The position numbers and the translations under genes are program-made. From Prochlorococcus sp. AG-424-E20 (lineage in GTDB: Bacteria > Cyanobacteriota > Cyanobacteriia > PCC-6307 > Cyanobiaceae), in the NCBI GenBank assembly GCA_003213355.1, contig QCND01000007.1, positions 1-36,317 on the forward strand: a stretch of DNA of 36,317 nt. The letters run 5' to 3'. Of the stretch, positions 2,259-27,948 are shown piece after piece. Under the pieces are notes generated by a model. It searched no databases and was not told the DNA's origin. It saw nothing but the letters and a program-made list of their open reading frames with translations. The first letter of the stretch is position 1, and every line of letters begins with the position of its first letter.

Positions 2259-2429
2259 ATGACTAGAAAAAGAGACAAAATCAGGACAGCGATCATTGCT
2301 ACTCGACAATGGTTCACCAACCTTTTTACTAGTGAGGCAGATGCGTTAGTTGATGACTTCGGAAATAATCCACCACCACAGATAGGACCTCAACCTTATT
2401 CAGGAGATACTCACGAGAAAGGTGACTAA
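2259..2429 (+). CDS. small basic hypothetical protein MTRKRDKIRTAIIATRQWFTNLFTSEADALVDDFG...
   Basis: ORF; internal ATG at 2259 is more plausible than the start at 2229. Confidence 0.5.
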   Translation: MTRKRDKIRTAIIATRQWFTNLFTSEADALVDDFGNNPPPQIGPQPYSGDTHEKGD

Positions 2430-2452
2430 TTGAACTTCTTATAAATGGCATT

Positions 2453-2540
2453 AAAAAAAGGGACCCCGCTGCTTCAGCGACCTTGAGTCCCTCTTTTCAT
2501 TTACAGAACAAAATGTGTGAGGAGTTGAGTTGTTCTGCTT
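2453..2540 (-). ncRNA. Yfr1-motif small RNA candidate (ACTCCTCACAC in hairpin loop plus terminator)
   Basis: minus strand: stem CAGAACAA/TTGTTCTG (2504-2511/2530-2537), loop CTCAACTCCTCACACATT, then terminator GGGAC..CGCTGaagCAGCG..GTCCC (2460-2491) and T7. Confidence 0.55.
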
Positions 2541-2828
2541 TTTACTTTCTAATCAAATACACAAAGGGTTGGCATCAGAAGAAATTCCTAAGGACCAAAA
2601 GCAGGTAAATTCTTTTGATGCCTTTATTGTTGATAGAAGCAAACAATTCTCTAATATGTATAATTTTTGGGAGAAAAGACATGAGGAAGAAGAAGGATAA
2701 GTTCAATGTGACGCAGGGTATGACCCTTTTGCTGCTTAAAAAAATTTCATTACCTTCAAACCTAGTCTTTCAAATGATTCTCTTTATTACTAATCCAGGA
2801 AATAATATCGGATACAAGGATTAATAGG

Positions 2829-2925
2829 TACAAAAAAACCGCCCGTTCTGAACAAGGCGGTTTCTTTGTGAGATCATGAGCAAGTGTTTCCTTGTTTCCA
2901 CTGCGGAGGATCTCAACTCCTCACT
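2829..2925 (-). ncRNA. Yfr2-family small RNA candidate
   Basis: minus strand: GAGGAgttgagaTCCTC hairpin, then GCAGTGGAAACAAGGAAACACTTGC with two GGAAACA boxes (2881-2900), then terminator AAACCGCC..GGCGGTTTTTTT (2836-2863); -10-like TATTAT just upstream. Confidence 0.7.
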
Positions 2926-3185
2926 ATTAAATAATAAAATGATTAATACTAAATAAATCAACAAGCAGTAAAGTTTTTCAACTGTCACAGATCATAAGAA
3001 TTTAGAAAGTTTCGCTTCAGCTAGGACAATAAGCTTTATGTAACACGCTGAACACCGAGAATAGTACAATAGGCTTAAAATTATTCTGTAGTAAAACTAC
3101 CAAAAAACGTTCAACTCATCGAATGATGAGCCGCAGTTTGCCTCAAGCCAAGGAACGGGGACTTGAGCATATTTCGGAGAAAAAA

Positions 3186-3287
3186 ATGTCTTTAACCTAC
3201 AGAGGTCTTAAGTACAACCAGCAAAAAGTAGCTGTAGAAAAGCAGCATGTACAACTTACATATCGTGGTAAGTCTTACCAAAACTAG
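3186..3287 (+). CDS. DUF4278-type small protein MSLTYRGLKYNQQKVAVEKQHVQLTYRGKSYQN (33 aa)
   Basis: two LTYRGxxY repeats typical of cyanobacterial DUF4278; RBS-like cggag upstream; terminator downstream. Confidence 0.75.
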   Translation: MSLTYRGLKYNQQKVAVEKQHVQLTYRGKSYQN

Positions 3288-27845: not shown

Positions 27846-27948
27846 CTAGAAAGACCTATCAATAAAGTAGAATTTAATCTCAATTTGGTCGGCGGGCCAT
27901 TTTGTATTTCTATCGAACTGTTCTAAAAAGGCAGACCGCCATTCAAGC

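Follow-up and report, generated by a model that had tools for sequence, protein, structure and literature searches.

Among the post-transcriptional circuits of the most abundant photosynthetic organism, the network formed by Yfr2, Yfr1 and Yfr10 counts as one of the main ones, and to our knowledge only a few bacterial small RNAs (sRNAs) have so far been found to regulate one another. In the laboratory strain MED4, Yfr10, Yfr12 and Yfr18 directly adjoin Yfr2, Yfr4 and Yfr5, respectively, and the Yfr1 motif can base pair with the 5' ends of Yfr2, Yfr4 and Yfr5 (Steglich et al. 2008, PMC2518516). Yfr10 is recognized by the placement of the Yfr1 motif in the loop of a hairpin. In MED4 both Yfr1 and Yfr10 contact mRNAs through the seed UCCU, and in HL strains Yfr10 is placed upstream of Yfr2 (Lambrecht et al. 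2019, PMC6778093). In CRAFD-Seq experiments Yfr2 pulled down Yfr1 and Yfr10, and the reverse, and in a reporter system the repression of a target by Yfr1 was abolished by Yfr2. Furthermore, Yfr2 prevents Yfr1 and Yfr10 from binding to ppa, and Yfr1 and Yfr10 in turn shield Yfr2 from RNase E (Lambrecht et al. 2019, PMC6778093). Since adjacency and complementarity were described in 2008, and experiments published in 2019 demonstrated binding and mutual neutralisation, the mechanism of antagonism is already published for MED4, and with it the core inference of the initial annotation of the locus analyzed here, that one of two neighbouring RNAs titrates the other.

The window analyzed, the whole stretch of 36,317 nucleotides of the uncultured Prochlorococcus sp. 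AG-424-E20, contig QCND01000007.1, contains two such RNAs on its minus strand (Table 1). As in the MED4 pairs Yfr2/Yfr10, Yfr4/Yfr12 and Yfr5/Yfr18, they are neighbours on one strand, and the 5' tail of Yfr2 complements a Yfr1-motif loop carried on a single stem. The order, however, is the reverse of that published for HL strains: in the MED4 pairs Yfr10 comes before Yfr2, whereas in the window the Yfr10-type RNA lies downstream, with about 300 nt between them. The window loop also differs in having a CAACT duplication, and the sequence is too diverged for the Rfam Yfr10 model. What is added to the known pairing is a relocated and diversified second copy of one of the partners; the novelty is modest and lies in position and loop diversification.

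Features and identity of the two RNAs

Table 1. Features of the Yfr2 and Yfr10-type RNA locus, with window positions.
Feature	Position	Strand	Basis
Yfr2 (Cyano-1) RNA	2831..2930	-	body 2866-2930 plus terminator
Yfr2 5' antisense segment GTGAGGAGTTGAG	2912..2924	-	direct sequence reading
Yfr2 terminator hairpin and T run, CCGCCUUGUUCAGAACGGGCGGUUUUUUU	2831..2868	-	fold and sequence
Yfr10-type RNA, class b of the genus	2454..2539	-	fold and genus model R1
Hairpin GCAGAACAA / UUGUUCUGU, 18-nt loop	2503..2538	-	minimum-energy and centroid fold; stem retained in relatives
Yfr10-type loop segment CTCAACTCCTCAC, perfect complement of 2912-2924	2517..2529	-	sequence
CAACT-CAACT tandem duplication, lengthening the match	2523..2532	-	single copy in relatives (38-sequence alignment)
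Yfr1 core motif CTCCTCACAC within the stretch	2515..2524	-	sequence; motif definition PMC2518516
Terminator of the Yfr10-type RNA	2454..2496	-	fold and terminator scan
Putative -10-like element TTAGAAAG	2545..2552	-	inferred from alignments; TTGATTAGAAAAGGAAAA precedes the hairpin in relatives
Glutamine-II riboswitch, divergent from Yfr2	3105..3167	+	RF01704, 66.2 bits
Gene for a small DUF4278 protein behind the riboswitch	3186..3287	+	PF14105, 38 bits

Direct reading bears out the antisense match first noticed by the initial annotation: GTGAGGAGTTGAG (2924..2912, minus) and CTCAACTCCTCAC (2529..2517, minus) are exact reverse complements over 13 nt. In 400 dinucleotide shuffles of the downstream RNA the longest perfect match to Yfr2 was 5-12 nt, never 13, and the 13-mer is confined to these two sites in the whole 1.27-Mb assembly. 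Yfr2 folds at -33.9 kcal/mol (z -3.9 against shuffles) and the Yfr10-type RNA at -30.8 kcal/mol (z -3.95). The folds also confirm the 18-nt hairpin loop claimed for the downstream RNA and good terminators on both units, since terminator hairpins close both RNAs; a simple scan flagged that of the downstream RNA alone. A promoter scan gave nothing useful on the minus strand.

The upstream RNA, described at first as Yfr2-like, is matched by RF01701 (Cyano-1) over model positions 1-69 of 69 with 56.6 bits (cut-off 41, E 1.9e-7), which confirms that identity. Like the Cyano-1 / Yfr2-5 family (RF01701), it has a 5' GUGAGGAG tail and both GGAAACA repeats, here in the loop of the first stem (GTGGAAACAAGGAAACAC); it lacks the UGUGUG ahead of GUGAGG, and there is no important difference otherwise. 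In the minimum-energy fold its 5'-most 15 nt remain free of pairing, and this tail is complementary to the Yfr1 motif. It had been proposed that the motif lies partly in the loop of a local hairpin, GAGGA-gttgaga-TCCTC, which is possible on paper but is not part of the minimum-energy fold. Across 40 distinct relatives, compensatory changes support another stem, UGAGAUC/GAUCUCA (one pair went twice from C-G to A-U, others from G-C to A-U), whereas no such changes were seen for the local hairpin, which is disrupted in some of these sequences and lineages. This makes the GAGGA/UCCUC hairpin a doubtful holder of the motif; it could be an alternative conformer of Yfr2, and the first 15 nt are best seen, from fold and alignment, as a free tail.

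The downstream RNA had been characterized by a Yfr1 motif, and the motif is indeed present, but the RNA is not Yfr1. It shares ACUCCUCACAC with Yfr1 (RF01116), in which the motif is single-stranded between two stem-loops, whereas in the window RNA CTCCTCACAC is found within the 18-nt loop of one hairpin. RF01116 has no match in window positions 2350-3100, even to E 10, and the true Yfr1 of this genome is on another contig (C11; RF01116, 60.5 bits), before what we take, by our own reading of the protein start, to be a trxA-like gene. The Yfr10 model RF02362 gives the downstream RNA 22.3 bits, below its cut-off of 43. This model is narrow: at gathering level it also gave no match to the Yfr10 copy that lies upstream of a Yfr2, in MED4 order, in the same genome (contig C57, L002). 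A genus model, R1, scores the window RNA at 87.6 bits, with the window sequence itself among the 38 used to build it. The downstream RNA is, on sequence and predicted fold, of Yfr10 type, and we use this label without filing the RNA in RF02362 because of its score below the cut-off.

Predicted pairing of Yfr2 with the Yfr10-type RNA

Under a simple one-helix model that sets no penalty on pseudoknots, the net energy predicted for window Yfr2 and the Yfr10-type RNA is -13.8 kcal/mol, against a best value of -7.4 in 60 shuffles. The values predicted for the same Yfr2 with Yfr1 (-13.8) and with the Yfr10 copy on contig C57 (-13.6) are similar. Together with the MED4 experiments (PMC6778093), these energies support the claim that the two RNAs base pair and that one titrates the other. 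The kissing complex in which this had been framed is only loosely right: tail-to-loop pairing is to be preferred because the Yfr2 motif is mostly a single-stranded 5' tail. We consider it very probable that the locus encodes Yfr2 and, behind it on the same strand, a Yfr10-type sRNA, with tail-loop pairing by which each sequesters the other. The single-stranded Yfr2 tail GUGAGGAGUU would pair with the CUCCUCAC loop; Yfr2 would thereby keep the UCCU seed of Yfr1 and Yfr10 off mRNAs, and the Yfr10-type RNA would in turn block Yfr2. By analogy we infer that the antagonism of MED4 operates in AG-424-E20 as well, with both RNAs made and binding. Such pairing is not universal: for the genome's second Yfr2, which carries GTGAGAAG, no good pairing with its neighbour is predicted.

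The initial annotation laid stress on the 13-nt length of the match, and this emphasis is not upheld. As a duplex alone, 13 nt give -22.2 kcal/mol and 9 bp give -14.2, and the extra CUCA of the window loop pairs exactly with bases that form the first stem of Yfr2, as might be expected if the CAACT duplication had been selected in this strain for an ability of the Yfr10-type RNA to invade and unfold that stem. However, opening the stem costs 8.6 kcal/mol, so that the net value of the 13-bp duplex (-13.6) is no better than that of the 9-bp core (-13.8), and deleting the duplication in silico still leaves -12.9 kcal/mol. In the one-helix model the length of the match is of no advantage, and on the predicted energies we reject the idea of an exceptionally strong complex. 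The Yfr2 half of the match is genus-wide: GTGAGGAGTTGAG recurs unchanged in 34 of 40 distinct in-register Yfr2 bodies from relatives, the 13-mer is present in 37/41 genus genomes, nearly always as the Yfr2 complement, and the usual Yfr10-side loop ...CAACTCCTCACACA... already provides an 11-12 nt match with most Yfr2 copies. The second CAACT is private to the window, alone among 38 aligned class-b sequences and the sole case in 41 genomes, and a 5-nt tandem duplication is easily produced by slippage. A special adaptation of this strain is therefore quite improbable, and the duplication, specific to the strain, is probably neutral or of minor effect.

Another reading holds that the motif is kept only through the action of both RNAs on mRNAs, and that their complementarity is incidental, CUCCUC and GAGGAG being Shine-Dalgarno and anti-Shine-Dalgarno-like words. 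UCCU being also the mRNA seed of Yfr1 and Yfr10 in MED4 (PMC6778093), the conservation of CUCCUYA could equally be attributed to mRNA targets; moreover, there are Yfr2 copies without a Yfr10 neighbour and Yfr10-type copies without a Yfr2 in the stretch read. Against this stand the physical and functional interaction of Yfr2 with Yfr1 and Yfr10 shown in MED4, and the recurrence of their adjacency at conserved spacings (about 188 nt for upstream copies and about 258 or 361 nt for downstream ones), so that we regard incidental complementarity as unlikely. Exact matches to the loop complement at non-sRNA sites of the own genome, an assembly about 70% complete, included no convincing ribosome-binding-site candidate.

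Two classes of Yfr10-type RNA in the genus

Yfr2 was found in 38/41 genus genomes. In most genomes a Yfr10-type RNA of the usual class, with a canonical and almost constant loop, precedes the Yfr2 GGAAACA core by about 188 nt. The window RNA belongs to another class (class b), located about 250-360 nt downstream of Yfr2 (at about 250-260 or 360 nt), with some copies away from any Yfr2 within the stretch read. Class b shares the promoter-like TTGATTAGAAAAGGAAAA, the stem GCAGAAC/GTTCTG and the terminator. In a search of 300 genomes of the family, the class-b covariance model gave strong matches within this genus only; elsewhere matches were weak (best E 7.6e-7). This second, downstream class of putative Yfr10-type RNAs is new for the genus, and it is under-annotated in these genomes because Rfam misses it at cut-off.

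The class-b loops (n=38, many of them near-identical by descent and not independent events) contain CUCCUUACC in 24 cases, the full Yfr1 unadecamer in 6, and CUCCUYA, the Yfr2-pairing half, in 37. The C-to-U change in the loop leaves a G-U pair with Yfr2, and predicted energies are -11.7 to -12.0 kcal/mol, against -13.8 to -15.5 for canonical loops. Class b would thus keep a Yfr2-pairing loop half, often the G-U-compatible CUCCUUACC, and lose the universal Yfr1 unadecamer, as if it had drifted from Yfr1-type mRNA regulation into a largely dedicated anti-Yfr2 sponge. We put this forward tentatively, as a possibility on the unlikely side; if true, each Yfr2 would have a target-regulating antagonist on its upstream side and a sponge on its downstream side. 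Whichever role they have, loop variants on a conserved scaffold form a natural series that could separate Yfr2 binding from mRNA binding.

Related sequences were observed elsewhere. A second Yfr10-Yfr2 pair of the AG-424-E20 genome, arranged as in MED4, occupies L002:1114-1325 (G000:C57, minus), its Yfr2 being the one with GTGAGAAG. The same scaffold and terminator are found at L119:1957-2042 and at L127 near 1015 (plus) with the loop UCUCGCAACAAAAAUU, devoid of the Yfr1 motif; the Yfr10-type scaffold can thus carry other loops. The downstream RNA's terminator (GGGACTCAAG.TCGCTGAAGCAGCAGGGTCCC) also stands by itself, with no sRNA hairpin, at L133:1538-1623 (G000:C19); several genomes match this locus, and by sequence this terminator is a recurring element in the genus.

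Conservation and loss at the locus

In the named relatives, all of them Prochlorococcus single-cell genomes, the same order recurs: a VTT-domain gene, the DUF4278 gene with its glutamine-II riboswitch, and a divergent Yfr2. The distance from the Yfr2 start to the riboswitch is 172-174 nt in the window and six other genomes. PirA was considered for the neighbouring small protein and rejected, as the Pfam match is to DUF4278 and PirA is reported missing from marine picocyanobacteria (PMC8092223).

Five named relatives keep Yfr2 at the locus and lack the downstream RNA, and in AG-311-D23 and AG-311-J23 Yfr2 is missing and the downstream RNA is decayed to remnants. The Yfr2-Yfr10 pairing is therefore not indispensable at this locus. 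These remnants, and the lack of class b beside Yfr2 in several relatives, would fit the view that the downstream RNA is a Yfr10 scaffold copy in decay and without function. In the window, however, promoter-like element, stem, motif and terminator are all intact, and the RNA folds far better than its shuffles, which makes decay very improbable there. Among the few named loci the downstream RNA is present only alongside Yfr2; strict co-occurrence at the syntenic locus was not retained as a rule, numbers being small and copies without a Yfr2 in the stretch read occurring elsewhere.

Two further elements surround the window Yfr2. It is flanked by 8-nt direct repeats TATTAATC (2948..2941 and 2826..2819, minus), and in AG-311-D23 and AG-311-J23 the junction left where Yfr2 is missing is consistent, at the sequence level, with deletion between these repeats. 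Upstream of Yfr2, at about 2960-3000 (minus), a block (TATGATCTGTGACAGTTGAAAAACTTTACTGC) is strongly conserved even where Yfr2 is lost, and is possibly a regulatory site. Elsewhere in the window, positions 27858-27942 (plus) match the cyanobacterial ribosomal protein S1 leader (RF03151, 62.9 bits).
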